Shown here: in pieces, positions 1 to 31,536 of the stretch
Position numbering within the stretch: position 1 is the stretch's first letter
Layout: every line of letters starts with the position of its first letter
NCBI RefSeq assembly: GCF_001540865.1
Contig: NC_033633.1
Coordinates: forward strand, 5,578,046-5,642,045
Length of the DNA stretch: 64,000 bases
From: Ananas comosus
Lineage: Eukaryota; Streptophyta; Magnoliopsida; Poales; Bromeliaceae
Reading direction: 5' to 3'
Position numbers and translations under genes: made by a program
The notes under the pieces: model-generated
Databases searched by the model: none
Told to the model about the DNA's origin: nothing
Seen by the model: the letters and a program-made list of their open reading frames with translations, nothing else

Positions 1-2780
1 AAACTAGAAAACAAAGGTTGTGGAAATAAAAGTCTCCACCTGGAAAGTGAGGGTGAGAGGAACTACACCATCGCTAGTAACCAGATGCGGAAGTGTCGCA
101 ATGAGAAAGCTATCGGATATTGGGTCTACCGCATTTACTAAAACTCCGGATAGAACTAGACTTTCAAATGGACTAAATATGGTTTAAGTAGGCGGCCAAA
201 CGTCTGGTCAGAAGATGAGACCCATGTTCCTTCCTTGTGTGTCGAAAGGAGGAAATGACCAATACAGTGTTGGAGAAGACATGTGCAAGGGTCTTCTAGT
301 TAGTTCTAAAGCAAAGCTAGCGGCAACGGAATTGGTTGCCGCTCTTTAATCGTAATCCATGGATAAAGGAGAGAAAACAAATATCTCTCTAAAAACTTAG
401 GTAGTTTGGTAATGGTAACCCACTACACCAATAATCAAAACCCACGTCACAGAACGCCAAAGATGTTTACACAAACGTATAGATAAAAGGAATAAACACG
501 GCTTGAGGAAATCTAAACCTAAGCTGAGGGTTAAAACTGTGAATACCAAACCGAGAGCCGACAGGGCTCGGAAACTGGCTTCCAGTTGGTGAGTTAAAAA
601 GGTGATAAAATCCCACAAATTACGTTCCTTGGTGGCAGAGGTATAATTGACCAGAGGTAAACCTCTTGCGCAGTGATCAAGCAGAACCGAAGAGTGAGCT
701 AAGCTTCGGTAAGTTCTAGTCGATCGGAGGAGAGCGCGGTCACTTATACGGTAGCACACCAAGAGATAAAACCGACGATCTCTAAACGTACAGTCGAACT
801 TCTTAGCAAGGTTTAATTGCGGTACATATCTCCACATAAAGGGAGTGATACATCGTGCGGTTAAACCTAAACATGTCCGGGAAGGTCGGGGTCGGTTTAA
901 GAAATGCCGGTTTTGACGAACACCGGTAGGAGGATGTTTCTCACGTCGACTTCGGCTAGTATAAAATCGAAACCCTTTAGCAGAAGCTGCCAAAAATTTG
1001 AACACTCGAAAGCCGATTTGGTGCATCCCCACAACCTGAAAGCGAAGGATCTCGGACCCTTCGGAAAACAGTTGTTATAAAAGAAAGGGAATACTGGGAA
1101 CAAAAATCGTTTTAGAAAGTATGTCTTCCATACGACAGAAAGTTTATTATGCTAAAATAGGAGTAGAGGAAGAAGGAAATAAAGTAAGGTGGAATTAAAC
1201 CAAGAAGTCCATTCCTAGGAAAAGATTAAGGGGATCTTCTACACAATCCTCCTTTAAGTCTGCTTCCGGGACTCTTAAACAGAGTAGGTGGTTGCCATTT
1301 AGAATAGAAGACCACATCAAAGAAAAAGACTACCTAAAGAAGCCGATTTTACAGAAAAAAAACGGTCGGGGACGAGGACGGAGTAACCGGGGTGCAAGGT
1401 TGTTCGCTGGCTATCTCAGACTAGTTAGCGGAGCCGGTAGCGTTGTCTTCGCCTCATTCTGGTAACCATAATTCTAGGCAGGATAAGTAATAAAACACGG
1501 TTGACTTCTCAAAGGCTACCTTTAAGGTAGCCGGCTATGAGGTTTACTCCACCACTTGGGACAAGTTAGCTGGTGACAGCTGGGTGAAAGACGGCGACAT
1601 TGGGTAGCAGATAAAGTTAACTTAGAAGAAGAAGAGTGAGAAGTCAGCCTAGTAGTGGCAACAGGAGAAGCTAGTTTGTCGGAGGCAGTTCTTTTTGAAG
1701 AGTATGAGCCAAGCGAAGTAGGAACCTCACTCAGTACAAACTATAGTCCGCCGTTCGAGCGATTCTTCGGGCGAATCTATTCTTCGTTCTTCGTTTCTCT
1801 TTTACCCGCCTCCGTTTCTTTTCTTAGCTTCTCCTTGTTTTTTTTTCAACTTCTCTTCTTTTTCTCCTCATCGGTTCGTCTCTCTCCTCCTTTTTCTAGA
1901 GTCCTTCTTCCTCCTTTACTTCCCTCCTTCTTTTTCTTTCCTTCCTTCCTTTCTTTTTTTTTTTGTTTTCCAACTTCTTCTCTTTCTTCTCGTTCTTTCC
2001 CTATCTCCTCCTCTCCGCTTGTATCTGATAGGACGACTATAAGTTCGACTCCGAAAACGTAGTCGAAGAAACGGCCATAGACTTGGTCATCTAGGTAACC
2101 GGTAAAGAGAAGTTCTAAACCGGCGAAGCTCGGGTTTTAGGTTACTGTTTCTTCTGGAGAGATGATAGTAAAGCTGACTCTGGATCGTCTTTAACCTACT
2201 TACAAATTCTGACATATCGTTACCAGAAAGATTAAACCGAGCTTTATATCTTGTTAAACTAGCCGAACCCCGTGAGGAACTAGATTAGCTAGTCGGTCTA
2301 GAAAGAGGACATCCATTTACAAAGCTACTCTGAAATAGAAGAGTAGAGGGAAGAAAGAACTGAGCCGTTGTTTGATAAAAACGGCTCATGAACCGAAACC
2401 TAATAGTAAAGTGGGTCCAGTCAGTAAAGTTTTACTTTCAGGGGCTTTACCGTTGAGGGTAATGACTGGACTTGGCCTTTTTGGGAAAAGATCTCTTGGT
2501 TTTTAACCGAGAAGCCGTCCGCGTAGTAGTTAGATTTTCTTCTTGAACGATGTCGGCTTAGTCGAGACCGGGTCTGTAGATTCGCCGTATAGAAACATGT
2601 TTGGGTTGATTTCCGATTCTTTCTAATTACCCACTTCAATGTCCTGGTTGAGAGAGTTGAAGTTTTTTAAGTGGGATACTACTTCGCTTCTTTCGCTCGT
2701 CGGTTGGACCGGGTTAGTTTAAAACTTTGGCTCACCTTAGTTGAATTTCTGAACAATAGAGCTAGAGAAGAGACAAAAGA
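1..2780. CDS. Plant-mobile-domain (PMD) antisense ORF of the Tat element (partial)
   Basis: Read this by complementing the printed bases left to right. The frame opens before the window. Near position 36 it shows GPFTPTLLDVV, followed by a FLLYWLCHNLFC-type segment near 250-290 and a LALGTYFLSFVYREIF-like stretch, all typical of the plant mobile domain (aminotransferase-like PMD) family. After about 1,350 comes a Pro/Ser-rich linker, then a Lys/Glu-rich region (about 1,800-2,000) and a coiled-coil tail to about 2,780. At least one stop (near 2,206) and one frame shift (about 1,620) break it. It lies tail to tail with the pol stop at 2,851. Some Tat-lineage elements are known to carry extra ORFs of this kind downstream of pol; its role is unknown. 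The right end is approximate. Confidence 0.72.
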
Positions 2781-2850
2781 TAAAGAATTGAGCCGACATT
2801 ATATAAAGTTCGAAAGTAAACATAAACTGAGATTGAAAAATAAGGAAAAG

Positions 2851-3308
2851 GATGTACCTACCCATTAGAAAAGAGTTTATGAAAAGTAACTAACTAAACA
2901 GCAAAAGATTGGGTGGATTACAAAATTCTTCATACGTAATGGAGAACGTTGAGACATTTAAACCTTACCAGGAAGGGTTAAAAACCTGATAAAGGATATG
3001 TGAGCTAGAAAAGCTGGCTAACCTTCATAATTCGAATTTTGGTTTCGAGGTTGTCTCTTTCTAAACCGGAACTGAAAAAATAACATACGTAACGAATGAA
3101 CCGAGACTATACGAACATCTACTAGGTCACGATAGTTGGCTCGAAGTAGGTAAAAAAGATTAGAGAGTAAGTAATTCCAAAACATAAACAAAAGGTAATC
3201 AAGGAAGACAGAAAGCTGAGCGTTTCTTCCTTGGTAATAGAGTCGTCCTTGATGCCGGAGTACCGGCATATGATTAACTTTGCTACAGTGGGGACAACGA
3301 CAAAAATG
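2851..3308. CDS. Tat-lineage Ty3/gypsy integrase C-terminus
   Basis: Read right to left. From 3,300 downwards the bases give ATGVTSFQLVYGHEAVVPA, the conserved segment after the integrase core of Tat-type elements. Near 2,960-2,990 comes KNWEGPFQIYRV, the usual small C-terminal fold. The frame ends with a TAG at 2,853-2,851 just after the motif YPSM. The segment is separated from the rest of integrase by the solo LTR at 3,309-5,834, and its 3,304-3,308 end is one copy of the target duplication. An in-frame stop near 2,990 shows that it is decayed. Confidence 0.85.
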
Positions 3309-5834
3309 ACATTTTATATCTTTAGAGCCATTCGCTTATAGCTTGAAATCAGTTTTACTGGTTTCACGCTCCAACCATACGAAGCCTTTCCGGCTTCCGA
3401 AGTTTTTCTCGTTTTCACGTAACACCTTCCAGAGCTTCTCGTTGAACCTCGTTTAGACGTGGTAACGTCTAAAACACGAGAGCCCCTGGCCAGGGACTTC
3501 CTCTCTGGCCAAGGGCATGCACGTCGGTCACTCTTCTCTCTTTTAACCGATTCAGGACTCTCAAAAAGAGAGCCCCTGGCTAGGGACGCCCTTCTCTAGC
3601 CAGGGGCACTCTGGCCAGGGAGTCCCACTCTGACCTGGGGCCGACGCATTTGACGTCTCTCACGAGAGCCCCTGGCCAGGGATGATCTCTCTGGCCAGGG
3701 GCACGGGCTTTTCACGGGTCAGACCCGTCACACTCTTCGTTGTTCAACTCCCCGGATTTACGTAAATACGTAGTATACCCAATATAACTCCCCGTTTACT
3801 CTACAAAGAGAGTAAAGAGAGGAAGAATAAAGTCTTTGTTCTCAAGAGAGAGAGAGAGAGAGAGATCCTTTAGAGAGAGAGGGAGTTCTCCATCTCGTTC
3901 ATCCTCTCCAACCTCCTCTTCTTCCGATTCCTCTCCTAATAGTAGAAGAAGAAGGAGTAACCACGTTCTTTTTCCTTTCAAAACTCCATTCGAAACGGGG
4001 GAGAGTACCATCTTGGGATTCCATCCAAACTAATCTGGATCTTTATCAAAATCATCCTAGAGAACCACTTAAATTCGAAAGAAAACGAAAACCTTCTCTA
4101 GTTTTGTTCCCAAAATATATATACAATATCGATCCCGTGGGTTTAAACCCCGAAAACGTAGCCAACCAAGATTTCCGTTTAACTGGAATATCTTTGGATT
4201 AATCCCCACAAAGGCTGCGCAACCACACGAGCTAAATTGCAATGCTTTTCAGATACGCTTCAATACTCGCTTTTTCGGATTAAACCGAAGCAAAACGGCG
4301 TCCGTTCCTTTATCCGCCGATTCTTAGCACTTTAAGCTTGGGCTCGTGGAATCGTTCGGATGCTCCACCCACCACGAAAGGTTTGAGAAACTTTAAGGAA
4401 GATATAGATTCACAGTGAATAACTCGTACATACAAATATCGAATAGCACGTATTATCCCACTTTATTCTCACATACAACGTACGAATATCAATTCTACGT
4501 AAGCAGCACCAACTCTTGGTTATTCTTAACATATTGGGATATACACGTACATACCACTGTTCTTGAATCGTTTCAATTTCTTGTTCACCGTAATACTGTG
4601 TCTCCTGCTACCCTGTAACACTATAACTCATGATCTCAATATGTGGATCATTTCATCACGCCGTTTCTTGTTATTTACGATCTCAATCGTAGTTCACACT
4701 GTTTCTTGTTATTTACGATCTCAATCGTAGTTCACACCGTTTCTTGTTATTTACGATCTCAATCGTAGTTCACACCGCATTTCTTGTGATCTCAATCACA
4801 TTACTGTACTAGCTTTTGTTTCTTCCGTTTCTTGTACTCTAACTCTGTATTACTGTATATTGGAATATCAATTCCCAGTAAACACGTACCAAAGGAATAT
4901 CAATTCCTTACCTAACTTGAACTGTAGGAAACTCAATTCCTAACCTAGTATGAGCGGTATCAGGAACGAGCCACCCACCATCGAGGGGGTGCTCGCTACA
5001 CGAGGCCTCAAGCTGTAGTGACCCAACATCATCAAGGAGGGGTCTCCTGCTAGGGCAGCTCAGCATCCTCAAAGAAGGACTGTAAACCCTAAAGCTCACC
5101 ACTCAACGAAACTCCGCTTTGGGGGCCCAATCGGTACTCTAACTCTAACACTTAACTTGTTCTTGGTACAAAAGTAGTACTCATAATAACTACTCGTAAA
5201 AATAACTACCGTAAACAAATCCGTATAATCAACGTATAATATCAACCAATGAATAGATAGACGAAGAAAGATAATACGGACTCAATCTGGATCACCCTTT
5301 CAGCCACTCTAACCCCGTTTTGGGTGATCCTTGAAGCAACATCAAGAGTGGGGTGATAAAGGTGTCTCGGCCCTGGCTCGCTCGGCCGCTCACTGGCGCC
5401 ATTTCAATAGCGCGACATCTGTCACTGGCGGTTCAACCTAAAATATAAAACGAACATCGTATGGGCAAGTAGTAGAAAACATAAACTACTAATCTCTATA
5501 ATTTCTTTACTTACATTCGATAGATATAACTTCTTTACACTACATTTCTTTCTTTACTATTTTTCGTTACATTTCCGTTTACACTAACACTATCAACTTA
5601 CGAACATTTACCAATTTTCAATTAGTAAGATGAACACTCAACATATCAAATCATAAGAAAGTGAGACCGATAACGAATGGGAGCACATTCGGTAATACAT
5701 ACAAAGGCGAACACGTTTGAGAAACGAACTTAACATGTACACAACTCGGATCCCGTCTGTCCCCTCCGAGACAGGCAAGCCGCAGACAAGCTGCACGGAC
5801 CTGGCCGGTTTCCCTAGCCAGTGTCCCGCACTGT
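3309..5834. mobile_element. Solo LTR 1 (family F), inserted in Tat integrase
   Basis: The printed 5-bp repeat AAATG lies at 3,304-3,308 and again at 5,835-5,839, directly outside the element. Complemented left to right, the LTR starts TGTAAAATATAG and ends GGGCGTGACA. It contains palindromic ACCGGT blocks (about 3,480-3,720), a CT-dinucleotide tract (about 3,845-3,865), the box ending TTCTCACCCC (about 5,320-5,350) and the CTGTCCGTTCGGCG box near the end. No internal retroelement domain is attached, so it is a solo LTR. Omitting the LTR plus one target repeat leaves the integrase frame continuous, which fixes both boundaries. Confidence 0.9.
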
Positions 5835-5839
5835 AAATG

Positions 5840-8800
5840 GCAGTAGGCCGTACGGGTGTTGTGAAGGCTTTCGAAAAGTAAGGTAAAGGAGCCCACAAAA
5901 GGTTATACAGCAAAGTACTTCCAAATACTATTGAAATAAGTGGCGAAGTCGAACAGGTAACCGAACTCGCATTATCCCACTACTTACTTGGTTGAATATA
6001 AAAGAACTGAGATATTTGGCTCTCTTAACAAGAGGGCACTTGTAACAGGGAACTAGCCAACATTAGCAGAATCCTTAGAGTTTTGCTACTTAATATCTTG
6101 GAAGATGTTTTAGATACTATGGGAAAACCCACTGGTCAGATCATCCAAAACGGAGATGGATGAACCATTTTATCAGATGCCGGTGATAATTCTTGAATAC
6201 GGTCGTCTCCTCAAACCGACTTAAAGAGGTTAATTCAGGTATCGGGTAGGAGCTTTTCCAATTCTAAATTACTAACGTACGTAAAGCCTTCGCCCTGGGA
6301 AACGTGGCTCGATACTTTAACTGTGAAAACTGTAGTAGACCATATGAAATGCGTTAGAAGAACGTATCAACTGGTCATTATGAGATACGACTTGGCAGGT
6401 AGAATTAGAGAAAGGCCGATTTACACGAGGTGTGTTCGGAAGCACCCGAAGCGGGTATTGATCGTTTCGAAGGAGCCCAGGATTTTGTGAAGTTATCATG
6501 AAGGAGCCGATAGGAGAATATCTCAACGGGTAAATTGTTCGTTAACGGCTCACGAAAAAAGGCTTATACTATAAGCTGGGCAATAATCCCAGCAGATTCT
6601 TGAGTTAATTTCCAAAAGAGATCAGAAGGACACAAAACTAGCCTTGTTAGTAGTAACCAAACGCATATACTTAGCTACCATTGTTGAAGAAAGATAAAGA
6701 TGAACTAAGGGAAAACCGAGAGACATAGGACGTCGGCTGATCGGTTTAATAACCGAAAGAGTAAAAGAAGGGAACTATCTACGTGCTTGAGACGAAGTGG
6801 CTTTGATGTTTCATTGAGATAATAAAAGAAGTTTATTAAGATGTCTAAAGTCAAAAGTATAGCCACAAGGGGTAAATGGACAAACTAGTGGTTAACACTT
6901 AGTGGCTACTGAAATTCAGTAGCACGAAGATTAAGAGCATTCTAAAGTTCCGGTTAATAATTCCGGCTAATAAGTCGTACTAACAATCTTATCAGCTTTA
7001 GGTTAAACTTTCGTTTGACCATTCACATCGGAAGTCCTCTGGTATATTAATAAGATCGAGAACGACTAAGCCGACAAAAACTAGATAGCTTTATCATAGG
7101 TTCCAACTGTTGGTTGGTTCGAGTCATGATCAAGGAGTTGGAGCCGTATACCTATTAATCAGTTCTTTAGCTGTGTACCTACTAGTCAGTTCTTTAGTCG
7201 ATAACGAACGGGAAACTGACGAAAACGGTCCTATTTTAATCCTCTTTTAAATCTGTTGCAATTGTAGGTAGTAGGCTAGGCAGGAGAATTATGTCCAAAC
7301 CTATTGTATATGAAGTGATCCGGTCAGAATGTCTGTTAACTATGAAGATGACCATCTTACATTATAGAGTCGAATCCTGTACGTATTATATTGTGGTCTG
7401 TGTAGAAAAGATAACGGCTTATTATAAAAAGTCGTAGTTCGTTCACGGCCGATTATATTATTTATCGAACAAGAAGAGAGAGTGATAAAAAGACTCGATT
7501 ATCTGTAGGATTTAAGAGACGACGTCGGCTATATATATTGAAGTAGCCAACTGGAACCGCTCCTCCGTACTTCTGACCTCCGAAACAATTTATGGAAAAA
7601 TACAAAAGTTTACGAAGAACAACAAGTAGACAGGTTGACTTGGGGAGAGCTAAGAAGACGGCATCGTTACCTCACTTATAAGGATAAGATGGCCGATCCA
7701 AACTATAGTTTACGGTGTCTATTAATTAAAAAAGGTAATCTGAAACATTGAGAAAAAATAAAGAACCATCGCCATCAAGGTATTATCGAAAACGAAACAA
7801 AAATAGATAGAGTTAAGGAAAAAACACATGATCCTTAGGCTCTTTTAAAAGAAAAATTTAATATAAAAGAATAAGTCAATTTCCGTTCAAAATTTATACA
7901 GGTTACTAGTCGATCGCTAAACTTAAAATGTTGTTACAGTAGTTACATTTGAAGGTTGTAAAACGGCTAGTTTAATACTTTTTATTTTAAGTAACGGGAA
8001 ACTTTTCATCGAGGCCGTAAGAAATTTGTTTTACCGTAATGATAGGTAAGAATCCAGGGTTATCTGGGGTTCGTAGACTTTCGACAAATATACAGAAGGA
8101 ACCGTTACTTTTTAACCAATATTGGACGTACAGGTAGGTATTTCCTCGGCCCGGCTCAAATGATCGTACAGTCGATACCCAAAGCCTATAAGTAGAAATC
8201 CGTACTGATTTAAATTTAAAGATTTCAATTACGTTTGAGATTCAAACGGTAAGGAAAAAGCGTGACCTTGATACAATTTTTGGGTTAGTTGTATTGCCCG
8301 GTGAGATTATTTTAGCCGTAAGTTTTCTAAAAGATAAAATAAGAATTAAACTTCATGTTATGAGCCGAATTTAGATGATCGGCCGACAAATATTCCGGAT
8401 ATGGAAAAAATTATCTTTCGGTTATAAGATGTTAAAGAGCCGAGTTAGGATTGTAAAGGAGTAGTAAAGTTCGCTTCGTTAGAAACATAAAGTAGTTGTT
8501 GAAGCAATCGAAGAGGACGACGACTCAGTTTTCGGAACACGATTATATGCAACCAGCAAACAAAAATAGGCTGGGATGTAAATGAAGATAATTCCCTAGA
8601 ACTCCGAGGTTGAAAAAGAGCGGTTGAAACTAGCCGCTAAGAAGATACCTAAGGATACATTAAAATACCTAAAATCACGATAAAAATGGTCTAAGCCAAC
8701 ATGAAAAGTAAAAGACTCGGCATGGTAAAAATAAACTCGGCCGAAATCATAAACTGTAAAGTAGTTCGCAGAAAAGTAGTTGGGTATACCGGCTAAATGA

Positions 8801-9363
8801 TCCACTAGAAAGGAGCCGGTGGAATCGGTTAAACTATGTGCTATAAAATAGCCGGTTTAGCCAGCTAAACTACTTTATCGGCTGGGGAAACCAACCGAGT
8901 AAAACGGCTTCGAGAAGATCTCGAAGCCAATGACTGAAAACTATAAGGTAAAGTTGGTTGAGCCACCGAGAAGGCGGCGGTGGTTACGAAGAAGCAGAAA
9001 GTACTCATGGTTAATCTGAGGAAGAAACCACTAGACATGCTTGCTTTAGACTAGACCCAGTTACAGTCGGGTTAACTATACCGGTTAAAGAAGGTTCAAA
9101 TACAGATGGAAGACTCCGGCAGGGAGCCGGGACTAAAGGAGGTGCGCTAGAGGCTGGGTGACTTTTTCGAAGGATACATTTTACCTACCGTGTGTGAGTA
9201 ACCGCACTTATTTTAGTACGGGCTCATCGTCCAACATCACCGATAGATGTAGGTGGTGCTTCTTCCAGCAAACATCTCAAAACCTAGGCTGGTATTCAAG
9301 CTGGCACTCACGCCGAGAGCGGATAACTGATAAAAATCACTTTAGCCAGTACTAACACAGTGA
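5840..9363. CDS. Tat-lineage pol: protease end, reverse transcriptase, RNase H, integrase
   Basis: Read right to left. 9,363-9,060 gives the protease tail with HYNLLLGHDFIHANECVPS. 8,440-7,900 gives reverse transcriptase: the entry segment GLSREIVEYWL, NIVPVRKRNGKLRVC, MPFCLKNAGATFQRAMN, and the catalytic YIDD at 7,948-7,937. RNase H is expected in about 7,800-6,900 but I did not verify its residues. 6,780-5,840 gives integrase with GPASEMHAII, WAMDLIGEI, DYFTK and TTDQGTMF, which are parts of the HHCC and DDE core. At least one frame shift (about 8,130) and several stops show that it is inactive. The solo LTR at 9,369 interrupts it upstream and that at 5,834 downstream. Confidence 0.87.
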
Positions 9364-9368
9364 TCCAA

Positions 9369-11699: not shown

Positions 11700-11845
11700 T
11701 CCAAACTCAAGTAGGAGTGAGAATGGGTTAAAGAACTTTTTATTATATCCGTACTGTAACTGGTAGCGGGGTGATAGGTGGTAGTGAACCGGATGTTCAG
11801 CAGTAAGATAGTTTAGGGATTGCTTATTTCCGGACTGTTTGGGGT
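11700..11845. CDS. Tat-lineage aspartic protease core
   Basis: A short coding island read right to left between two solo LTRs. It gives VMVDSGAMVNVMP with the active-site DSG at 11,777-11,769, followed by FFKKLGKSEDELKPS up to the target site at 11,704. This is the hallmark of the retropepsin of Tat/Athila-type elements. Upstream sequence resumes beyond the LTR at 11,846-18,642, and downstream sequence resumes at 9,363. An in-frame TGA about 35 bases before the DSG motif is a sign of decay. Confidence 0.85.
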
Positions 11846-14800
11846 ACACTTCCGACTCAAAAAAAGATATATTTAAACTGTAACAAAATTTACAATAACA
11901 CACGAAAGATTACAATTTGAACGAGCAGTTAAAAATCACTGTTTCCTAAATTTTATTTTAAAAATGCGCTAATAATGAAAAGTGAATTTCACTTATCATT
12001 GAGCCCAAAAGCCCTCTCCGGTAACACGCTCTACCGAAGACCGCACATAGCCTGAGGCAAGTGTCACTAGGTTATCGAGCAAAAGTTGACAGACTTATAA
12101 GGTCTGGGAAACCGCGACTGCCTAGCACCAAAACTGCGTACTAAAAACTCTTGTATTCTAAAATAACGTTTCACCCAAAAACAAGAAATAGCAAAGACGA
12201 AAAATTTCAAATGGCAACGAGACAAAACGCACACCTGGGAGCCCGTCCCTGGTAAAACACTCTCTTACGAACGTAGCTCCCTGAAACCGGCGTTAAACCG
12301 ATTCAATCCCCTAAACTTCCGCTAATAATCAAATAAATATTTTCAACGAAAACTCCACAACCTTCTCCCAAACAAAACAGCACTTAGCCGCTGGCAAGAT
12401 TACTTTGTTTTAGTATCCAAACTACCAGACCGTCAAAACCTTCGCAACCGCGCTAGGGAGGCATTTAAGTTGCTTAGCTAGCAGGCTTTAACACGCAAAT
12501 AGCTCCTACCCTACAAAAACGTTTTGCCCATAAAAACATTTTGTAGGTTATAAAATACATGACAAAGTGCTCCTTAACGTACACCTCTACGTAATCGCGC
12601 AAAATGTGTACGGGACTCCCTGAGTTCAAGTTTAAATCTCAAAAGCCCCCCAAAAGCCGTTAATATATAAAACATATATACATATCAAATCCCAAGGAAA
12701 GAGAACTTGGGATTGGGATTGGAGGGGGAGAGGAGAGGGCTCGAGACCGGTGGCAGAGTGGTAAGAGACCGTGGCGGCGCACGGAGGGGCTGACGGCCGC
12801 TGGGAGGGGTCCGGCCGGTTTGGATGACGGTGGAAAGAGAGAGAGAAAGAGTTCGAGAGGGAGAAGTAGAGAGGGAGAGATCTGGGCTGCGCTGGTCCCC
12901 TCGGCACGGACACACCTAGGAGAAAGGGGGTAGAGGACCTGGAGGCCGCTGGTGGAGGCCGGTAGGGACACGGCGGTCTTCGGCGGCGTCGGCGGCGAAA
13001 AGGGCAAACCACGTCAAAAACCGTGACCGTCGACTCCGATGAACTACGCGGCGACGGTGACGGCGTCGGGAGTCGGCAGTGGCGGTGGGAGTCGGCGGCG
13101 GCAGCGGAGGGAGCCCGGAGTCCCCTGGACGATGACAGCAGGGGTTGGATAGGGCCGGCAGTGGCAGCAACCCTCCTCGGCGGCTCGGACTCAGGATCTG
13201 TGCCCAACCGGCATGAACGAAGGTCGCGGCGGCGGCGACGAAGGGCGGCGGCCAGTTCCACTCGTGCCACAAGGAGTGGAAGGGGCGTAGGTGGGGAGCG
13301 GGCACGCACGTAACGGTACGTCGGCCGTCAGCTGGCCTCGTTCGAACGAGGCCGGTTTGAGCTTTATCCCGTAAAGAACCCAACGAGTGACAAGGCTCTT
13401 TGGACTCCGGAGGATTAGAAGCTCCTTCCCTGCTGCTACTAACATTGAGAAGCGGCTAGTAGCACGAGTGGAGTCAAAGATTGCCCTTCCGAAGTAAAGC
13501 GACAAAGTCGTTACAGCGAGGAAACCCGGAACATAAGAACGTGATAAGAACCCGAGCCACACGAGGCGTCGATAAAAGCTACGGAACCTGTCACTCGTAC
13601 CCGAAGCGTCGCTACTCTGGATCGACAACCACGGGAGCAACCAGAACTTTAGCACGTTATCGCCACTCCAACGGAAAAATCACACAATTAAGTAATCAAA
13701 TACGATAAATACATAACAAACTCCCGAAGGTACGTTAACACTGTCACACCCTACGGAGTCCGTCGTACACTGGTGGAGCATACTGGGAGACCTGACTAAC
13801 AGGTTCAGGAGCTATGAAAGCGCTCTAGCTTGGCACAAAGCTTTACAAAAAAGCTGCTTTAACAGTCACTTTGCACAAATACTACATCCTGAGTGAAACA
13901 CCTCAACACCTAAGGGATCAAAGTAGCAACTCGGAACAACCGACCAAAGGGAATGACAGGGCTTCAAAGCCTCTGTTGGCTACTCGCTGCCTCCCAAAGC
14001 CACACCTTTGCCGTAAAAACCCTTGGGCCCAACAGTAAAGCCCACGCAAATACAAATGTACGTGGGACATGAACACCAACGATAGGTTGATGGATTTAAC
14101 CACACAAATGGATGTCGACCACTGAACCCAACGAATAACCATGGAGGGTTCCATAAAGGAATCCAATCCTTAGCAAGCCCACCTGAAAGGCTTTTAAACC
14201 GCTAAAGCCCTAACACTCAAATAATAAAAGCTCAGCTGAACTGCCTAGAACTGAACCAGAAAGCATCCAGGTTAGCTGCAAGGACGCTCGGAACCCTCAA
14301 TCCGAGAAGAGGTCAAGTCCACCCATGAAGCAAGAACATTCCTGGACTTTTGAGCTCCACGTCTAGGCTTTGAAACTAGATTTAACTAGCTTCCACTCAA
14401 ACCCTGCGAAGCCTTTCCGCCTTCCGTAGCTCTTCCGTATTTCACGTAACTCCTTCCGGAGGCTCTCTTTCAACCTCTTAAGGACGTTCACGTCCTTAAT
14501 ACGAGAGCCCCCGGCCCAGGGAGTCGGCTTCCTGACCAGGTGCATACACACCCTTTACCGTCCTTCCTCGGATGGATGTACAAAACGAGAGCCCCTGGCC
14601 AGGGAGTCACTCTCCTGGCCAGGGGCATTCGCACTTTTACCCATCTGTTTGAGAAGGGCGTCCTAAACGAGAGCCCCTGGCCAGGGAGACATCCCTCTGG
14701 CCAGGGGCATCGGGCTTTGACGGACCCAACTCGTCAGGTATCCTGTTTTTCAACTCCCCGGATAAACGTTATAACGTAATCTCCCTAATATACTCTCCCC

Positions 14801-17800
14801 AATAAGAGTAAAGAGAGGGAGAGAGGGAGTGTTGATTTGGGATTTGAGAGAGAGAGAGATCCTATCGAGAGAGAGAGAGAGTGTAGTTTCTAACTCGTTC
14901 CTCCTCTCTTCCTACCTCTTCTTCCGTTCCTCCTATTCTCGGTAGAAGTAGAAGAAGAAGAACACGAACCTCGTTCGAATCTCTCCGTTCGAAGAACCTC
15001 GAGAAATTACCACCTAAAGATCCCAAATAGAAAATATGAGATCTTAGCCAAATCTACCTTGAGATCGTACGAATTATCTCCTAATTACGTACTTAGATCC
15101 CTAAATAAACCTCATAAACGTTATCAACGTTTGGATCCCGTAGGTTTTTCCCTCAAAAACACTTATCAACCCAAACTAGAGTTAACTGGGAGACAATTGG
15201 ATTAACGATCCAAAAGGCTACGCAACCGCTCCAGCCAAGCTGCAAAGCTGCTTGGATGCTCTTCTATAGCGGCTTTTTCCGTAAAAGCCGCTACAAAGGC
15301 GGACCTCCCGGTTGCGCCGCAGGTATTTAGTGCCCTCACCTAAGGCTCGTAGCGCCGTTGATTGGCTTCTGGATATTAAAGGTCCCGGTGCTTAGCTGCG
15401 TGCCAATCCCACGTCAACGTACTTACGTACTAATCGTAACACACCTATACGTACACTTGACCTAGCTACTGAGATCTCATTCATCTCTTGAGCTATAACC
15501 TGTTAATCCTACAGCTTATCTAGCTCACCGTAGCTTGGATCACAACAACTTGGATCCCACTTAGTACTCACCGTAGATTGGATCACAATTTCTTGTATCC
15601 AACACTTACTTGGATCTCAATTTATCTAGATCCACTCACCGTAGGTTGGATCACAGCACTTGTATCCAACTTGTACTTACTGTAACTTGGATCACAATTA
15701 TTTGTATCCAGCCTATACTTACCATGTCTTGGATCTCACAACCTTGGATCCAATACTGTACATCATTTGGATCTCACCTTAACTTGGATCCAACAACTCG
15801 TATTACCATCGCCGGTGTTCCTACAAGACCCAGCTTGGATCTATCCAGCTGTCGTATCCCAACCTATACCTGGGAACTATACACGTTCACCTAAGGCCTT
15901 AGGGTCCTGAACTCTACTGGAGCCATAGTTCCGATCCCGCACACGCTATTAAAGCAGCGGCTCTAACTATGGTTCCACCTAACCCACACACATGTCACAA
16001 GCGGTGGGCCTCCGAACTTGGTACCGACCCACACACGCTGCTAAAGCGGCGGTCTACCAATTCGGCTAACACTTAGTCCGGCGGTCCACTGAACTCAGGC
16101 AAGTCGCACACGCTACTAAAGCGGCGATACCCCGATTCAGTGCCTCCCGCCAACCGACTCCACGTCGGTCGTGCACCATCAGGCGTCTACTAATTGAACT
16201 CCGGCTCAGCTCACCTATCGAACCTATCCCATCACCTTTGGAATATTCGATCACTATTTCCGTTCTCTATTCCACTATCACTGGAATACTCGTTCACCTT
16301 GAACTTAACACTTGATTCCATCATCTTGGAATCTCCGATCTACTGAACTCGATTTCTATCGTTTCAACTCTCATCTTAGTTATCTAGATGATCAACAACC
16401 AATTACAAGTATGACGTACAACGCGCCGTATTATAGACAATCAACGTAATATTGTTCTACTATATATATAGATATCTACAAAAACCTGATTGTACTAACG
16501 TCACGGAGGAACCTGGATAACCAGCTCGAGAAAGGAACCCACCCTTGGTACCTCAACCAAGAGTGGGGTGCAACAAAACCTCACAATGTCCAAACGTGCA
16601 CTCGCCGCGCCGCCACACTCCGTTCCCGTATCGAGGCATCTATCGCGGGATGTGTCTCTGGTCTCTATGGCCATGGGGCTCATCCGTATCGGATCCCCAT
16701 CTCCCTTTACTTTTCTTGTACTACATGATTTTGAACATTTATTTATTAACATTATTAGCCTAACATAAAACCTTCAAGTTACATTTGTTTAACATAATAC
16801 ACCTGAAACTCTTACTTACGGACATTATCGTTTATCAAAATACAAAAACTATGAAGAAATACGTTAGGAACTAACTTTACACAAGGACCAACCTTGAAGT
16901 ATGTAACATAACTAACGCTGCGGACCTTGCATGTCCCCTCTGAGACATGTGCCATGTCCTTTTGGGACAGGCAAGCCGCGACAGCCGCATGGGCTTGAGC
17001 TGGTTTTTCCGCCCAGCGCCCCGCACTGTCAAGGCCTCAGCCATGTTATTTGATCGAGCCACTATAGAGAGAAAAAGGAAAGAGGAACGTACAATACCTA
17101 TTCACACAAAGGTGATCTGAAGGTCAATAATAAGAGATGAAGTAGGAACGTATACTATCTCCATCTCACCACACCACATAGGACGTACTAGAATTCCACT
17201 CTGGACTAACCAGTCACAACTAACCGAGTCACTAGGCTCGCTAGAGAACCTGAACACAATCAGCAACGATAAGAGCCGAACAACAGCAGGACACCTAACT
17301 CGTAAAACGTAGTTAGCAGTGTTGAGTAAATCGTGAAGTGCTTGTGGCCGCCAAACCGGTTACACCCCCCACAAAAAAAAGCTTTTTCATCAGCAGATGA
17401 TGTGGGCACTCGGAGAACGGTCCATGAACGTCTCCAACACACGAACACCCACTCGTATGACACTGTATCGGACGCTAGGCGACTAAATATCCCGTATCAC
17501 TAACCCAAAGATCAAATAGATATCAACTACGTATACGAATAATAAACATCATCGTCATCAACAAGTATGGACACGTATGGAATAAACGTAATAAGCAACG
17601 ATATGAACTATATATATCCCGCTCGTATGACACTGCATCGAACACTAGACGCCTAGATATACCGTATCACTAACCCAAAAATCAAATAGATGTCAACTAC
17701 GTATACAAGTAATGAGTCATCGTCATCAACAAGTATGTACAAATATGAACAAAAGGTAATAAGCAATGACAGAACTATATATGTATAGATAGACAACGAG

Positions 17801-18642
17801 GAGGAAACGGCCACTCATGCGGAGCGGAAGCAGCCGAACGTCATGGGTGATCCTCCCATCTGTACAAATGTACAAGAGTGGGGATGGTTAAAAGTCCACT
17901 AGAGCCACCACCCTCAGCCCTGCCACACACTCCACGCTATCGATCACTCGATATCTCCAAGGCTGGTGAGTAGCAAGCCAATACCAACAATACAGAACTG
18001 GAAAGAAACATATAACCAATTATTTTATCTCAATACACCAAATCAATGAGTTAATAGATAACAAACTAACGGCCTGAACCACCAAAAACTTATAACACTT
18101 ACTAACAAATAAGGGTTATTAAGTCCTACTATTTACACCAAAATAGCGAGCACCAAAAGATAGGGAGCGCCATCGACCGAAAGGTTTTCTTTCAAAGGCA
18201 CACCCTTTGTCAAAGATTTCCTAAAAGCTTATATAGCTATAGATCACAAAAATTTATCTCAAAGGCCCATCTTTTGTGAAAAGTTTCTTATTTTAACTAG
18301 CAACATACACGTAATCGTAGTAGGAAACGGATTCCTCACAAATCTCGTACGTAGTAGCATTCCTACCAATCGACTTACCAACAGACTGTAAGCGTAACAT
18401 ATACGACAAACACGCTTACCTACTCACACAACAACATAAACGATATACTCATGCGGCACGTCTATGTCCTTTCTGAGACAGTCACACTTGTCTCTCTAAA
18501 GACATAGATACCGCCCAGACAATGCAGAACCCCTGTTCAACATTAAAGTTTTTTTTATATATACCCGTAAAAGCGACTGAAACAAAGTTTGATCGGGGAT
18601 ACTAAGCTTTTCCGAAATATTTTTCCTGGGACCCCGTACTGT
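11846..18642. mobile_element. Solo LTR 4 (chromovirus family A/B), itself interrupted by LTR 2
   Basis: Complemented left to right it starts TGTGAAGGCTGAG and ends CTGGGGCATGACA. It matches the LTR at 34,308-39,063 along its length: the segment ACTTAAAGTGAATAGTAACT, the GC-rich middle (12.7-13.3 kb), the GAGCCTTGTTGGCTGGT box and the tail with GGAAAGACTCTGTC. The flanks read GGGGT (11,841-11,845) and GGGAT (18,643-18,647), a target duplication with one mismatch. Without LTR 2 it is about 4.05 kb. It separates the gag/linker of the Tat element from its protease. Confidence 0.83.
14284..17029. mobile_element. Solo LTR 2 (family F), nested inside LTR 4
   Basis: The printed direct repeat CAAGG flanks it at 14,279-14,283 and 17,030-17,034. 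Complemented left to right it ends GCGGGGCGTGACA, has ACCGGT palindromes at about 14,505-14,710 and the box ATGGAGTTGGTTCTCACCCC at about 16,545-16,575. Its region 15,400-15,800, complemented, matches the repeated AGTGGCATCTAACCTAGTG unit at 25,990-26,160. It is the second layer of nesting in this block and the longest F copy (2,746 bp), because of extra copies of that short unit. Confidence 0.88.
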
Positions 18643-20201
18643 GGGATGGACGTATCGACTACCAAAAAGTTTTTGATGGCGTAGTCGGTGGAATCGTAAA
18701 AGATTGACCTCGACTCGGTAACATTCGAGGAGAGGTAGTATTTAACTGAGAAGGTTAAGATAACCAAGACGGAATTTGCTTATACCATCTCGTATATGGT
18801 ACGAATGTAGTCGGCTCGAAAGAAGCCGGCTAAAAAAAACATGAAAGACAAAAAAGAGGAGACTGAGAGAGTGACGGAGTCGGCTTCTTAGGGAGAGGCC
18901 AGTTTAGAGGGAGAGGAACCCTCCGATGGATAGAGTGAATTACTAACAGAAACCGCTCCGCTAGAAGAGAAGATTAAGGAAAACTCATTTAAAGAAACAA
19001 CCGAGTGAACCTCGGCTTACAAGTTAAAACCTGAAATTGGTACCCTGTCCGAACCTTGGCGAATGAAGTATCAGTAAGAAGTATCCGGTTTTTCTGCCGC
19101 CACTAAGTACGACTAAGATTTGTAAGCCGGAGTATGAAAAACGGAGAAGGGTTACTATAGAACGAAGCCAAACGTAGGAAACGACGGCTGCGAAAACTCA
19201 GAACCAATCGTAGCCGGGTACGGTAAACTGGCCACGAAAGGGTTACACGGTAACTAGTTGACCGTATAACCATCCATGGAAATATCAAGACTCTACAAGG
19301 GAGTATTAGAGAAAAGAAAGGATGCTAGAGCCGGTTCCAACTTACGGCTCGAGCAATTGGTCACAAGCCGGCTCCTTAAGTTACACTGGGAGCCAGTAGG
19401 GGAGTTTAAGTCCAAGCCCAGCGCCGCTAGACCAGACTACTACGGTCAATCCGACCATGGAGCCTATGGAAACAACACACGGCTTCCCAAAGAGCACTAT
19501 TAAGGAAACCGACTAAGAAAGAAGCCAAAATACTAATATCATTAGTAGATACTGGAAAACCTAATAGTTCAGAAAAAATAGGCAAAAACTGAGCTGAAGG
19601 AGAAGTCTCGGTAAACTTAGTGAAAGACTTGTCAGTAGGACTAGTAAGAAGCGAAGTCCTTCTAGAAAAGTAAGAAGGCTCTTACGGTACTTGAGGAAGG
19701 TAAGGGGCATATTGAAAAAAGGGGTTTACTAGCGGAGGGTCAGTGCAGCGTAGTAAAGCCGGGAGGTGGTATACGTATCGGCTTCACGAGAAGACATAAC
19801 CGCTATAGAACCAGGTAGAAGAGAACTTGATTACGGAAAAGAACATGTAGGTGGTATAATTGGACGCTCCCTTTACCTAAGACTAGTTGAAGGTACAAGA
19901 ATAAAAGAACTAGCCGTTTATACTTGGCTGGAAGTGAATAGAGAAAAACTTAAAAAGGAGAACTTCAACATCGGTATCATGTTAGTAAACAGGACACCGA
20001 GGAACTTACTACGGTGAATGTTATAGAAAAAGAAAAATTAAGAAGAGAGCTCCCATAGTAAACAGGGAGTACCTCAACCTAAGGTGGTAGAAAATTATTG
20101 GCTAGTCTTTAATTTAGTTAAAAACAATGTAGCTTTCTCATACATATACTACGATGAACACGAAATCGAATTGATCGGAACCGACCAAATTCGTGTCACG
20201 T
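18643..20201. CDS. Tat-lineage gag C-terminus and gag-protease linker
   Basis: Read right to left. 20,150-20,050 gives SYTYSFDVTKIDLISDRLLKD. 20,024-19,979 gives the Tat-type Cys/His box YCKWHHSRSHRTNDC. After that comes a stretch with GRFIFADQ and MEVDQNPFP, a conserved gag-end signature of this lineage, open to a TGA at about 19,751. The frame resumes near 18,720 with MAQLQLENAKVADAVVF and runs into LTR 4. The first bases adjoin LTR 3 at its target site CACGT (20,197-20,201). An in-frame TAA near 20,172 marks decay. Confidence 0.84.
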
Positions 20202-22741
20202 ACATTGTATGGCTTTGGAGTCATTAATTTAAGCTTGGAACCAGTTTAACTGGTTTCACGCTCCAACCATGTGACGCTTCTCCGGCTTCCGCAGTACATT
20301 ACGTTTTTACGTAATGATCCCTGGAAGCTCTCGAAACTTTTAGTTTTAGACGTTTGACGTCCAAAACACGAGAGCCCCTGGCCAGGGACCACCCTCTCTG
20401 GCCAGAGGTTTGCGCATCCGTCGCTCTACCGATTCTTTAGCCGATTCAGGACCTTTTAGTCGAGAGCCCTTGGCCAGGGATGCTCATCTCTGGCCAGGGG
20501 CCTCTGGCCAAGATAGTTCCCTCTGGCCAACGTAGTGCGCATCGGACGCGTCAGGCGCCCTCCTCGAGAGCCCCTGGCCAGGGTCCAGCCCCTCTGGCCA
20601 GGGAGTGACGGTTTTTACGGGTCAGGCCCGTCACGTGTCTCTTTCTCAACCGCCCGAATCAACGTTTACAACGTTGTACAATATACAGGGTAGAGGAGAG
20701 GGGAAAAGTGTCGTGTGTGTGTGTGGAGAGAGGGAGAGTAAAGGAGAGGAGAGAGAGAGATCTTTAGTGGATCCCGAACTTCCTCTTCTTCTTGTTCTTC
20801 GAGCTCCTCCCTAAAAACCACCTGAACCACCCAGATCCTCGAGAAGTTGTTCTTCCTCGAACGATCTTGAACCCGGTTCCATTTAAAAATCGTTCATCTC
20901 GGGATCCCAAACCTCAAATTGGAATCTAAAACCTCAAAACCAGAGAAATCTCCAAAATCTTCTCATCATGTCGAAACTTATGGTACTTTGGGATCAAAAG
21001 AAGTACCACGAGATTACCCCCTAAAGATCCCAAACGTAAAATTTGGGATCTCTACCAATCCTACCAAGATTACTCGAAGATCTCGAATCTGTTCGAGAGA
21101 AAACGAACAAAATCTCTAGTTTTGGATCCCAAATTGTTACCCAAACCAATCCCGTGGCTTAAATCCCAAAACGGGTTCCTAAAAAACCCCCGCTTAACTG
21201 GAGCATCTTTGGGTTAACCCCCACAGGAGCTGTGCAACCTGTTGAGGCAAACTGCAATGTTTTTACAAATTCATACCAAGTACATGTTTTCCGGATTTCA
21301 CCGTGATAAAACCAACATCCAGCGCCATAGCCGAAAGCATTTCAAACCCTCAGTAGTATAAGATGCGGGTGTGCTGGTGAACTCCACCCACCACGTAAAG
21401 TTCCTGGAGTTTTTAAGGAAATACAGAATTCACAGTACAAACTTGTATATACATATATAACTCCTAGAACGTATCATCCCAATTAACGCTCGAAACAACG
21501 TACTAACACTTTAATTAAAGCATACTTTATGAACACTCTTACACTCTTAATATTGGGATACATACGTACTGTTCATTGTTCTTGGATCTTCCCAATCACT
21601 TGTTTTCACTGTGTACCTGTAACTAGATCACTCACTGTAACTACCCAGATCTTGTGAATCTTTTGTTCACACCGTAAACCGTACTCTTGTTCTTGTATCG
21701 TGGATCTTTTATTCACACCGTACTCATGTTCTTGAATCATCACATATACTGTGATCACTATCATTTCTTACGTTTCTTTTCTTACTAACTCTGTATACTG
21801 TAAAGTTGGAATCTCAAGTTCCAGTAAACTTGTACCAGAAGGAATTTCAATTCCTTACCTAACTTAAACCTTAGGAGTTACATCCTAACTAGCATGAGTG
21901 GAAAATCAGGAACGAGCTCCCTTCATCGAGGGGGAGCCCGCTACACGAGGCCTCAGCTGTAGTGACCCAGTATCGCCCATAGAGGGGTTTCCTGCCAGGA
22001 TAGCCCAACATCGCCCATAGAGAGGCCAATTTATCCTAAAACCCAACCACTCAAACAATTCCCGCTTTGGATGTCCAATCGGTTCTCTAACCCATTTCTT
22101 TAACACTAGAACGTAAGTAGTACTCGTAATATAGCTCGTAGCATAAAATATAACAAGTCCGTATAATCAACGTAAACAATCAACCAATGAAAGGAAGAAG
22201 ATAAGATAATACGGACTAATCTGGATCACCCTATCAGCCGCACCAACCAACGGCTTGGATGACCTTTGAAACAACATCAAGAGTGTGGGGATAAAGGTGT
22301 CTCGGCCCTGGTTCACTCGGCCGTCTGCTGGCGCCATTCCCGTAGCGCAGGATCCATCTCTGGCGGGCTCTACAAAATAAAGTATCAACGTATGGGGAAA
22401 ACTATGTAGTAGAAAATATAAAGCTTCTAATATCAACAATTTACTTTCCTGTACTTACTACATTTTCTTAAATAAATTATAGTTACATTATAAAACCTCC
22501 TTACCCTACATTCTTTCCTTTACTACTTTTTAACATTATTTAAGGATTCACATCAATAAAAGATAGTGACAACCGATAACGAACGGGAACGCGTTCGGCA
22601 ACACATACGAAGGCGAATACGTTTGAAATATGAGATAACTACGATCAACAATTCGGAACCCGCCTGTCCCCTCCGAGACAGGCAAGCCGCAGACAAGCTG
22701 CGAGAGCTTAGCCGGTTTTCCTAGCCTGAGCCCCGCACTGT
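20202..22741. mobile_element. Solo LTR 3 (family F), inserted in Tat gag
   Basis: The direct repeat CACGT flanks it at 20,197-20,201 and 22,742-22,746. Complemented left to right it starts TGTAACATACCG and ends CTCGGGGCGTGACA. It shows four ACCGGT-type palindrome blocks (20,370-20,610), a GT-rich and GA-rich tract (20,710-20,760) and the CTGTCCGTTCGGCG box (about 22,665-22,690). The gag frame runs up to each side of the insertion and is coherent across one copy of the target repeat. Confidence 0.9.
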
Positions 22742-22746
22742 CACGT

Positions 22747-24145
22747 AAATGTGCCAACTGCCAAGAAATGGTAGAGGCGATGTATTTAAAACTGAAGTGA
22801 TCGGCTTAGGAGACAAAGCATTTTTAATGAGCCGAGCAGAACTCAGTTCCTAAGGAGTTATTTTCTCTGTAAAAAGAGGAAAGGAAATGGGGTTAGAAAC
22901 AAAGTCGAGGTAAATCCAGCTAGGAGTAATAACGGAAAGGACTTAACGAGTATAACTCGTTGAGCCTGTGGGTTCAATTTGTCTAAACCTTTTATAAATA
23001 GAAGTTTTATTAAAAATAGAATTTTACGTCTGGTAACTTACAGTAAAACCGTTTAAGACTAAGACCAAGATTGCTTTGTTGCCGAAGAGTGATAAAATTT
23101 GGCCAAGTTCATAAGAAGTTGGCTAAGAGGACCGAAAACGATCTTAACTCCATCTAGTTGCTGACTATCAAGATCAAGACTAGATATCTTGATGAGTACT
23201 TTGTAAGAGAGGTTAAGCAGGATTAGTGTCTGTATTAACCGACCATTTGAACACATGGTTCATTTGCGGCAGAATTAATTACTGTACAATTTATTAGATT
23301 CAAAGTCCTTGCTTAGACACCGCCGGAGGGATGTAACCCCGCATTTGCGGCGGTGTACGAGTTGTCACAAAAACTAAAGTAGTGGCTTTTTAAACAGTTT
23401 AAAATCGTAAAAAGTCAAACGATCTATTCCTACAAGATGTAGATATAAACGTCCTATCCCTCTAGATTTATACCCGGTGTAACGGCCGGATCGAGGATGA
23501 GGTTTCCATAATGCTTACCGAAGGAGATAAACTCGCATATTAAGTAATAACAAGGAATTTCGTCCTTGCCCTCGAACTCCAAATCGGTTTAAGCCAGGAA
23601 CTCCTTAAGGTTTTAAAACGTGACCATGTTGTCCCAAGTAAGGAACCTGTTGTAACCCCCGAACGGGGGATTGGGATTAGGGATATAAAACCCCAACTAT
23701 CCGGCAGTGACCACCGCCCTCTCCATTAGGGGTACGATGAAGATCAACAACTCGTCTTAAATATCAGCGGTCAGATATTCGTTGAACTATTTCTCGATGG
23801 ACTCCGAAACGTAAATGATCGCAGTGATCTAAAACGTTGCGGCCACGTGGGTATCCAGGAACACTTGGATAATACCCTACAAATAAGGTTCAATTATTAA
23901 CGGGCTAAACCCGTTACAAGAGTAACCTTCGACATTATCGCCGGTTTTATCGTAGTTCTGCTCATCATGAGGCTACTGATGAAACCAGATCTTGAACATT
24001 CTAGGTTCAGTAGACAGGTTCACGGGTTCGGTTTGAACCAAGAACAACCAGACTAACTAGCGAACAAAGTGGATGGTGGCCATTCCGATGTACTGCGAGC
24101 AAGCGTAAGAGCCACAATGATCGAACCAGCAAGGGCTTTAAAGTC
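22747..24145. CDS. Tat-lineage Ty3/gypsy gag N-terminal part
   Basis: Read right to left the frame is open from about 24,144 for roughly 240 codons. It contains VETS-like leader sequence, NSAQQLEVAWGLPLPPP, then SPYPANIDVEHPYL (about 23,460). A TGA follows near 23,405, then KFDKFFGDEIKNTVEHVAAF and TDSFLKLRLF, then TAFTWYTSLP (about 23,260-23,240). These are the defining segments of the retrotransposon gag domain of Tat-type elements. Two more stops follow before LTR 3. No intact start codon was identified: the frame is preceded by a TGA near 24,145. Confidence 0.88.
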
Positions 24146-25392
24146 CCTTGCTGGTCCAACATCTCCAAGTATCGCAATAGTAGTCGTAGCGAGCATTATT
24201 TATTTTACGTCTAAATGGAATTATACAGGGTGACCCGCACGGTTTTTAACGACGCCAGGCTTAGGAAGTTGACGACTGGGCCAGTTTCTAGGAGGAAGTA
24301 TCTCGCACGTTCCTCTACCTTGCCGATGCTTATTACTGGGAGCTTCAAACGCGGGAAGCATTCTAGTTTGCTAAGTCAAGTACTCCCTAGCCTGGTTGGT
24401 CCAAACAGAGTTATGTTATTTAGACCAAGCCGATTTCTCGGTTTACATGCCTGACGTGTTCCTAAAAACCAAGCCGACTTTTCGGATCACTCCGAATATA
24501 ACGACTATAAACCTTTTTGCAAATGTTCCGACCTGTTTTCTTTTTAGATGAGATGGTTGATGAGGATCTTTTATGACATCTACGCCCTCTTACTTTTCTA
24601 TTAATCATGTGATGAGGATCTTTCCTTCTTTTACGCACCTTAACTTGCCAGTGAAGGGATGAAAACACCCGGTGATGTCCAGCTAGGGTTGGCGTACTTT
24701 GGCAAACGCCAAACGACACTAAACAGGAAACAAGGGCCACGTGGTCTATGGGTTGTAGGAACCGAAAACGTCGAGGACCAACACAACACGTGGCCAAGTG
24801 GTGCACCGCGCTAAAAGAATCGCAGTTATCATTATTTGGTTTTCATGATACTACTATTAAAACAATTAAAAAACTAGAGTAGAGAGACTACCAAAGTTTC
24901 GTCGTCGTTTACTTTTACTAATCTCGGAACACGTTCCACTTTTACCTAATTTGACTTTTTTCCCAAATTGGTCTCCTATTTTACTTAATCTACATGTCAC
25001 AAGAGAAGAGGCAGCAGCGGAAAGTTTCAAACCTTGAATACTCGTGTTCAAAACAACACGAGGATTATCGTGTTACCCAAATGATATAGAAAAATAAATA
25101 CAAAGATAGAGAGCTCGAGCGCTCAAGTATCGAAGGCAGATCGATATGATAGATATCATGAAACACGAACCATGATAACTCAAAAGATGGCAATCTAGAT
25201 GCGGAAACCAGTAAAAGAGGGCAATCTAATATGATAAGTTGGTTAGTAGGTGAGTTGGGATCCCCCGGGTGATAGTAAAATTAGCCTCTAGAGATAGTAG
25301 GATTCCCGATGTACAAAAGTACGTGTTGACTGAACCATGAAATATCATCGTATCCTCGAACCAAGATAAATATCTATATATATAGTATATAT

Positions 25393-25395
<3 letters not shown>
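24146..25395. other. Non-coding leader of the Tat element and flanking repeat
   Basis: No coding frame was found here in either polarity. Complemented left to right, 25,150-25,350 contains CCGTTAGATC and TCTCCCGTTAGATTATACT followed by CCACTCAACCCTAG, which looks like a dispersed plant miniature-element end. The block between it and gag is AT-rich, with no recognised LTR boundary, so the 5' LTR of the Tat element is either missing or not recognisable. Confidence 0.4.
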
Positions 25396-25429
<34 letters not shown>

Positions 25430-25877
25430 CTCGAAAAGCTCGAAAAGCTCGGATTAAGCTTGCTCGGCTCATTATGAGTTCGAGCCGAACTTTACTTAAA
25501 GCTCGGAAAATAAAACAAGTTCGAGCCGAGTAAATTAAAGCTCAGCTCGGGCTCGCTCGGCTTATAGCTCGGCTTGTGCTCAGCTTGCGCTCAGCCGAGC
25601 GAGCAAACGGTCGGGATTGGTGTAGATCGTAAAAGAATACTACGAGTAGTATACGTAGATGAGTCGTAAATGTAATTGATAATTGTACGTNTAATGTCGA
25701 GAATTTCAATCGGCTCGTTTAGAGCTCGAGCTCGGCTCGACTCGAAATTAGGCTCGCTCGAGCTCGGCTAGAATTAATTTCAAGCCGAGCTTGAGCCTAG
25801 ATTTAGGCTCGAAATTAATTTCAAGCCGAATTTGAGCTGACATAAGCTCGCTCGAGCTCGGCTCGTTTCCACCCCTA
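25396..25877. mobile_element. hAT-type MITE, left end lost in an (AT)n run
   Basis: The right terminus GCTCGTTTCCACCCCTA (ending 25,877) matches that of the intact MITE at 48,488-49,044. The interior is a fold-back of repeated AGCTCGGCT and GCCGAGC words. On the left it runs into about 30 bp of (AT)n at 25,396-25,427, where the intact copy has an AT-rich stretch and then its left terminus. The left terminus is absent here because the polarity-reversed block joins within the AT run. A single N lies at 25,691, in the loop of the hairpin. Confidence 0.7.
25691..25691. other. Single undetermined base in MITE hairpin
   Basis: One N sits between ATTGTACGT and TAATGTCGAG inside the fold-back element. 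The window's other two Ns (48,756 and 49,226) lie in the second such hairpin and at the vector junction, so single Ns seem to mark manual joins or unreadable hairpins. Confidence 0.6.
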
Positions 25878-27574: not shown

Positions 27575-27579
27575 GTTTG

Positions 27580-31297: not shown

Positions 31298-31536
31298 AGG
31301 AGGGAGCTTCGTAGATTATCACACTAGTCCGATCGAAGATACAGAAGGCCGTAAAATGAGTGCAACGATCCAATAAGCTCTTCCGCTGGAACTACTGTAA
31401 GTATGATATTTTTATGATGGTTATTTTTCCTACATGAACTAAAAAAACAAACTCTAGACTGTATTATATTATCATATCAATACTGAGTAATCTACAATCA
31501 TCTAGTGGACAAACAACTAAACAAAAGGCATAATAC

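Follow-up and report, generated by a model that had tools for sequence, protein, structure and literature searches.

Can part of a plant chromosome record be written in the wrong chemical direction, and if so, by what route? The question is raised by a window of 64,000 nucleotides from Ananas comosus (NCBI RefSeq assembly GCF_001540865.1, contig NC_033633.1, positions 5,578,046 to 5,642,045 of the forward strand), which is the whole stretch of DNA that we analysed and to which all positions below refer. An initial annotation had claimed that positions 1–25,427 are written 3′ to 5′, as a complement that was never reversed. Here we find that the polarity of this block is indeed flipped, as shown by alignments, proteins and composition. 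On the evidence of its sequence, the stretch from 1 to ~25,400 is plant retrotransposon DNA stored 3′ to 5′; as biology, the flip is very probably an artefact and not a real feature.

1–25,427, no strand assigned: block of wrong polarity (3′ to 5′), recognized by alignments, proteins and composition; starts at the window edge or upstream of it

The start at position 1 that had been given for the block does not hold, because base 1 is merely the edge of the window; the true start lies at or before it.

Evidence for the polarity flip

Four readings of 1–25,427 (as printed, reverse complement, reversed only and complemented only) were compared with 25,428–64,000 by blastn (E ≤ 1e-3), one strand each; the complement-only and reverse-only readings are the two strands of one molecule. 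Complementing alone gave 25 high-scoring segment pairs (HSPs) with 3,928 aligned columns and a best E value of 3.7e-138, and reversing alone gave 6 (305 columns, best E 8.8e-07). The printed text and its reverse complement gave 0 HSPs each, the outcome that the initial annotation had predicted. Under a more sensitive alignment scoring (E ≤ 1e-6, at least 60 columns), 14 alignments, 13 of them plus and 1 minus, linked the complemented block with the remainder of the window; the printed block had none on either strand. Homology to DNA of normal polarity thus appears solely after complementing or reversing alone. Two particular alignments that had been described were recovered. The complement of a long terminal repeat (LTR) at 3,309–5,834 runs left to right along the LTR at 49,700–52,246, in pieces that join 3,306–3,516 to 49,697–49,907 (62.5% identity) and 3,487–5,835 to 49,939–52,242 (56.9%). 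The pairing of 15,400–15,850 with 25,950–26,200 lies inside a longer alignment, between the complement of 15,421–17,142 and 25,907–27,678 (64.7%).

Each part was also compared with itself, half against half. The unflipped part gave 7 HSPs as printed and 1 as reverse complement, and the block gave 12 and 2; neither part gave any when one half was only reversed or only complemented. Each part therefore matches itself in ordinary readings alone, so both are ordinary DNA and the polarity differs between them. An ordinary biological inversion would yield the reverse complement, the very reading that has 0 alignments to the rest and matches 0/80 and 0/8 of the homologous proteins described below, and chance likeness cannot give an E value such as that of the best complement-only match. 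Refuted by the alignments, the comparison of halves and the protein counts, inversion and chance are vanishingly improbable.

The protein matches decide which part carries the flipped polarity. A reverse transcriptase piece from the block, read right to left, found 80 homologous proteins (best E 6.9e-69), the named ones being from Malus, Prunus and Lycium. In its reverse-only reading, the block matches all 80; in each of the other three readings it matches 0/80. Right to left, the block encodes a reverse transcriptase–RNase H homologous to the Ty3/gypsy family. A gag piece (24,141–23,416) found 8 proteins (best E 7.5e-79), of which five are named, all from Ananas comosus; these pineapple relatives hint at a monocot source, and the retroelements together with the magnesium-chelatase gene described below point to a plant. 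Again, 8/8 match the reverse-only block and 0/8 match each other reading of it; none of the eight matches the rest of the window in any reading. One Ananas protein, P0204, matches both gag (24,186–23,785) and the protease region (9,279–8,920) in one order.

The rest of the window, by comparison, reads normally. Ten of the 80 reverse transcriptase–RNase H proteins also match its printed strand weakly, the best three at ~47.0–47.4 kb, and none of the 80 matches it in its other three readings. The stretch concerned, 47,021–47,374 (plus strand; best E 1.6e-11), appears to be what is left of a different retroelement, of normal polarity. Relatives of magnesium chelatase (120 listed of 2,869) all match the ordinary reverse complement of the rest, best at 32,283–31,531, and among those listed none matches any of the other seven readings of block or rest; 31,531–32,283 (minus strand) appears to hold one or more plant magnesium-chelatase exons of the ChlD or ChlI type, in normal polarity. 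Of 10 open reading frames (ORFs) scanned in the rest, 2 on the printed strand carry copia-type gag and gag-pre-integrase domains above curated cut-offs.

A Pfam scan covered 9 of 33 right-to-left pieces of the block and 1 of 4 of its reverse-complement ORFs. Two of the nine pieces matched: 7,854–7,273 has RT_RNaseH_2 (E 5.3e-24) and RT_RNaseH (E 1.1e-15), and 6,158–5,880 has a weak match to the integrase core rve (E 6.1e-05, below the Pfam curated cut-off). The other seven, including 3,350–2,991, and the reverse-complement ORF had no Pfam match. ORF length was dropped as a test of reading, as the counts of ORFs of at least 150 codons in the block do not discriminate (0 printed, 4 reverse complement, 5 reverse-only and 6 complement-only). 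The motif Y[IVLM]DD is not exclusive to the right-to-left text: the printed reading and the reverse complement each contain it a single time, as YLDD, by eye in contexts that do not resemble reverse transcriptase.

Composition gives the same answer without alignment. Reversing a text swaps every dinucleotide XY with YX, and such a swap is seen over the whole block. As printed, its observed/expected ratios are CG 0.98, GC 0.77, TA 0.95, AT 0.80, TG/CA 0.83 and GT/AC 1.01. Once reversed, they become CG 0.77, GC 0.98, TA 0.80, AT 0.95, TG/CA 1.01 and GT/AC 0.83; those of the rest are CG 0.91, GC 0.99, TA 0.84, AT 0.98, TG/CA 1.00 and GT/AC 0.88. G+C content is 0.430 and 0.431 on the two sides of the join. 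We scored 4-mers in order against reversed order in 1-kb bins, with the rest of the window as training set and, for its own bins, a guard of 3 kb on either side. The score is negative (reversed) in 25/25 bins of 1–25,000 and positive (normal) in 35/38 of the bins that start at 26,001 or later; the bin between, 25,001–26,000, is mixed and scores +2.0. No island of normal polarity was found inside the block at this 1-kb resolution.

The three exceptional bins of 26,001–64,000 (starting at 55,001, 60,001 and 62,001) score −0.3 to 0 and overlap a single repeat family, at 54,684–56,446 and 60,257–62,619. In that family, CA+TG is slightly lower than AC+GT in the 2-kb bins at 54,001 and 60,001. The LTR starts near these bins, at 56,548 and 62,619, read normally, so we claim no second flip within 26,001–64,000.

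These data also bear on a biological route. Seligmann described swinger DNA and RNA, the proposed products of a polymerase that swaps bases according to a rule; the transformation seen in the block is the sole rule that he reports for DNA, and his account includes sharp switches (PMC4942731). Applied to this locus, a polymerase would have copied 25 kb under A↔T plus C↔G, like for like, and the chromosome would truly carry at least 25 kb in which the bases were complemented but the strand was not reversed, more than any polarity-flipped DNA known so far. However, no later stretch of normal polarity occurs in the block (25/25 bins reversed) and TG/CA is not in excess as printed (0.83), so there is no trace of genome residence in the flipped form. 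We know of no enzyme that has been shown to perform swinger copying and, to our knowledge, no accepted biological process yields a complement without reversal. Both swinger replication of the block and a chromosome that truly carries it as printed are, in our judgement, highly improbable.

Retrotransposon features of the block

The features of the block run as follows, all read right to left.

23,194–24,186, no strand assigned: gag, in the reverse-only reading (best E 7.5e-79)
20,202–22,741: solo LTR with start TGTCACGCC, inserted in gag; flanks TGCAC/TGCAC
~20,168–18,619: further gag-like sequence
14,336–17,029: LTR of the same broad family; flanks GGAAC/AGAAC (4/5)
8,920–9,279, no strand assigned: protease region, matched by P0204
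7,150–8,408: reverse transcriptase and RNase H, with YIDD at 7,948 and RT_RNaseH_2 (E 5.3e-24)
7,848–7,150: tail of the reverse transcriptase and RNase H
2,991–6,158: integrase pieces that flank a solo LTR, with rve (E 6.1e-05) at 6,158–5,880
3,309–5,834: solo LTR inserted in the integrase region; flanks GTAAA/GTAAA

On these features, the block seems to hold an old Ty3/gypsy-type element, degenerate and nested. Its name is our assumption, based on the order of the domains, and the labels of the protease, of 20,168–18,619 and of the piece at 3,350 are likewise presumed, from motif and order. With that proviso, the right-to-left order agrees with the one first described: gag at 24,186, protease at ~9,279, YIDD at 7,948 and putative integrase pieces at 6,158 and 3,350. 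The integrase-like stretch 6,158–5,880, below cut-off as it is, follows the reverse transcriptase–RNase H of 7,848–7,150.

The LTR start TGTCACGCC occurs in the block three times in the reverse-only reading, once in the complement-only reading and not at all in the printed or reverse-complement readings; the rest has four on its two strands. The three LTRs of the block with this start begin at 22,741, 17,029 and 5,834. Target-site duplications, which the initial annotation had reported for the block, are perfect 5-bp repeats in two of the three LTRs examined (TGCAC and GTAAA), and the third falls short, at 4/5. For comparison, the normal-polarity LTR at 52,246–49,700 is flanked by GAACT/GAACT. 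At least two of the block LTRs look like solo LTRs.

The LTRs examined are insertions, and two lie in the coding region. As they share the flipped polarity of their surroundings, the flip is later than the insertions and struck the whole block at once. One rule over at least 25 kb that holds several separate insertions, together with 0/25 bins of normal polarity, argues strongly for a bookkeeping error. We hold that the flip is almost certainly an error of polarity in data handling.

The join at ~25,427

The following features lie at the right-hand edge of the block.

25,366–25,427, no strand assigned: (AT)n array, the simplest point for the change of polarity
25,425–25,877, plus strand: right-hand part of a hAT-like miniature inverted-repeat transposable element (MITE), AAGCTCGA ... 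CACCCCTA, a relative of the copy at 48,488–49,044
25,907–27,577, minus strand: LTR missing ~1.1 kb at its 3′ end, next to the join; matches 15,421–17,142 once that stretch is complemented

The switch is bounded by 24,186, the last reversed feature (gag), and ~25,430; the first feature of normal polarity to the right is the MITE part, from ~25,425. The attempt to place the switch by composition alone was set aside, as it yields only a broad minimum at 25,667. The relative of the cut MITE, at 48,488–49,044, has the ends TAGGAGTG and CACCCCTA, a likely 8-bp duplication GCGACGAC/GCGACGGC (7/8) and a TA-rich interior; we presume that it is hAT-like. The only three Ns of the window are single bases at 25,691 and 48,756, inside the two MITE copies, and at 49,226, in an inverted repeat just beyond; our guess is that they are perhaps unresolved hairpins in clone-type finished sequence.

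Three histories can be set against these features. In the first, a piece was reversed without complementing and then joined where it belongs, in which case the complemented block would continue naturally into 25,428. The letters are the same as those of a complemented piece up to the choice of strand, an (AT)n run stands at the join, and the complement has, just left of the array, a TAGGAG similar to the MITE end that is missing (9/16). However, the printed strand fits that end equally (10/16). The left end of the MITE was not found at the join, and the duplication that it should have, GATGTGGT, is absent left of the join in all four readings; over the entire block it turns up at 63 and 423 when the letters are only complemented and at 1,318 when they are reverse-complemented. 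The missing ~1.1-kb LTR end was also found neither at 24,300–25,365 nor at 1–1,100 in any of the four readings: scores at 24,300–25,365 are 125–211, against up to 219 for shuffles and 930–1,783 for real copies among themselves. With the LTR end absent from 24,300–25,365, 25,428 is probably not the natural continuation of the complemented block. We consider reversal at the true place unlikely.

In the second history, separate, non-adjacent contigs were misjoined, one of them with a polarity error. No element was found that is continuous across 25,427, and the join falls in a simple repeat; both sides, however, share an LTR family and a similar G+C content (0.430 and 0.431), which fits one genome but does not show adjacency. 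We rate a misjoin as a possible but doubtful explanation.

In the third, which the initial annotation had proposed, a contig was complemented but not reversed before being joined. The polarity error itself is supported; the choice of complementing over reversing is a further and weaker step, taken from the missing LTR end, which favours complementing alone or a misjoin over reversing alone. If the error lies in data handling, a complement-only piece at a true join has, in our view, somewhat better than an even chance, the remainder falling to reversal and misjoin. A piece that needed reverse-complementing during finishing or scaffolding would have received the complement step alone. The join would then probably have passed because an (AT)n run, whose appearance neither reversing nor complementing alters, stood at both ends, and the true left neighbour of 25,428 would be the other end of the block, upstream of the window. 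Both the exact operation and the left end of the block are what we infer.

Several points weigh against this account. The stretch 24,100–25,365 aligns with nothing in any reading, so the switch is placed to a range and not to one base. The composition minimum lies beyond the (AT)n array, which could belong to either side of the join. The LTR at 25,907 may be no more than a truncated copy, and reversing alone and complementing alone would then have equal merit. A handling error is, moreover, read here from the finished letters.

If the flip is an error of this kind, homology searches and annotation would miss at least 25 kb of the record. A scan for swapped dinucleotides, free of any alignment, reveals the flip plainly and could be run over whole databases to look for the same error; the swinger-DNA claim could then be put to the test on raw reads.

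Other features of the window lie to the right of the join. Dense minisatellite arrays (27,690–29,804; units of ~40–156 bp) contain long open frames, which lie on the minus strand; the dinucleotide make-up of this zone is odd (CG 101 versus GC 37 at 28,001–30,000). Direct repeats at 33,708–34,228 and 43,113–43,636 (94.5% identity) flank a copia-type gag at 39,118 and probably represent the LTR pair of a younger copia element, itself carrying nested insertions. Searches for plasmids (1-kb query), phages (5.6-kb query) and Rfam families (whole window) gave no matches, and a transfer RNA scan found none.

Comparison with known systems

The block resembles plant Ty3/gypsy LTR retrotransposons in its gag, protease region, reverse transcriptase, RNase H, integrase pieces and LTRs with 5-bp duplications, and nothing unusual was seen in it except its polarity. 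It also resembles the clerical orientation errors that occur in sequence records when reverse, complement and reverse complement are confused: one rule holds over the whole stretch, the edge is sharp and the content is ordinary. What sets it apart from such errors is that it occupies at least 25 kb inside an otherwise normal, longer stretch. A limited search of open papers, which is no proof of absence, found no literature on complement-without-reverse errors in records.

A published parallel is swinger DNA, of which a report on Kamimuria wangi 16S ribosomal DNA, cited by Seligmann, is reportedly one case. A later paper argues that systematic exchanges cannot come from random sequencing artefacts (PMC7027195). 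A reversal skipped in data handling would yield precisely such a systematic exchange, and the window looks like a large example. The block has the form that was published as biological swinger DNA: it follows the A↔T plus C↔G rule, which is a complement without reversal, with a sharp switch (PMC4942731). In that work, swinger DNA is presented as a state of the polymerase and the DNA cases cited are genes and ribosomal DNA, whereas the block consists of tens of kilobases of nested transposons and bears the marks of a data-handling error.

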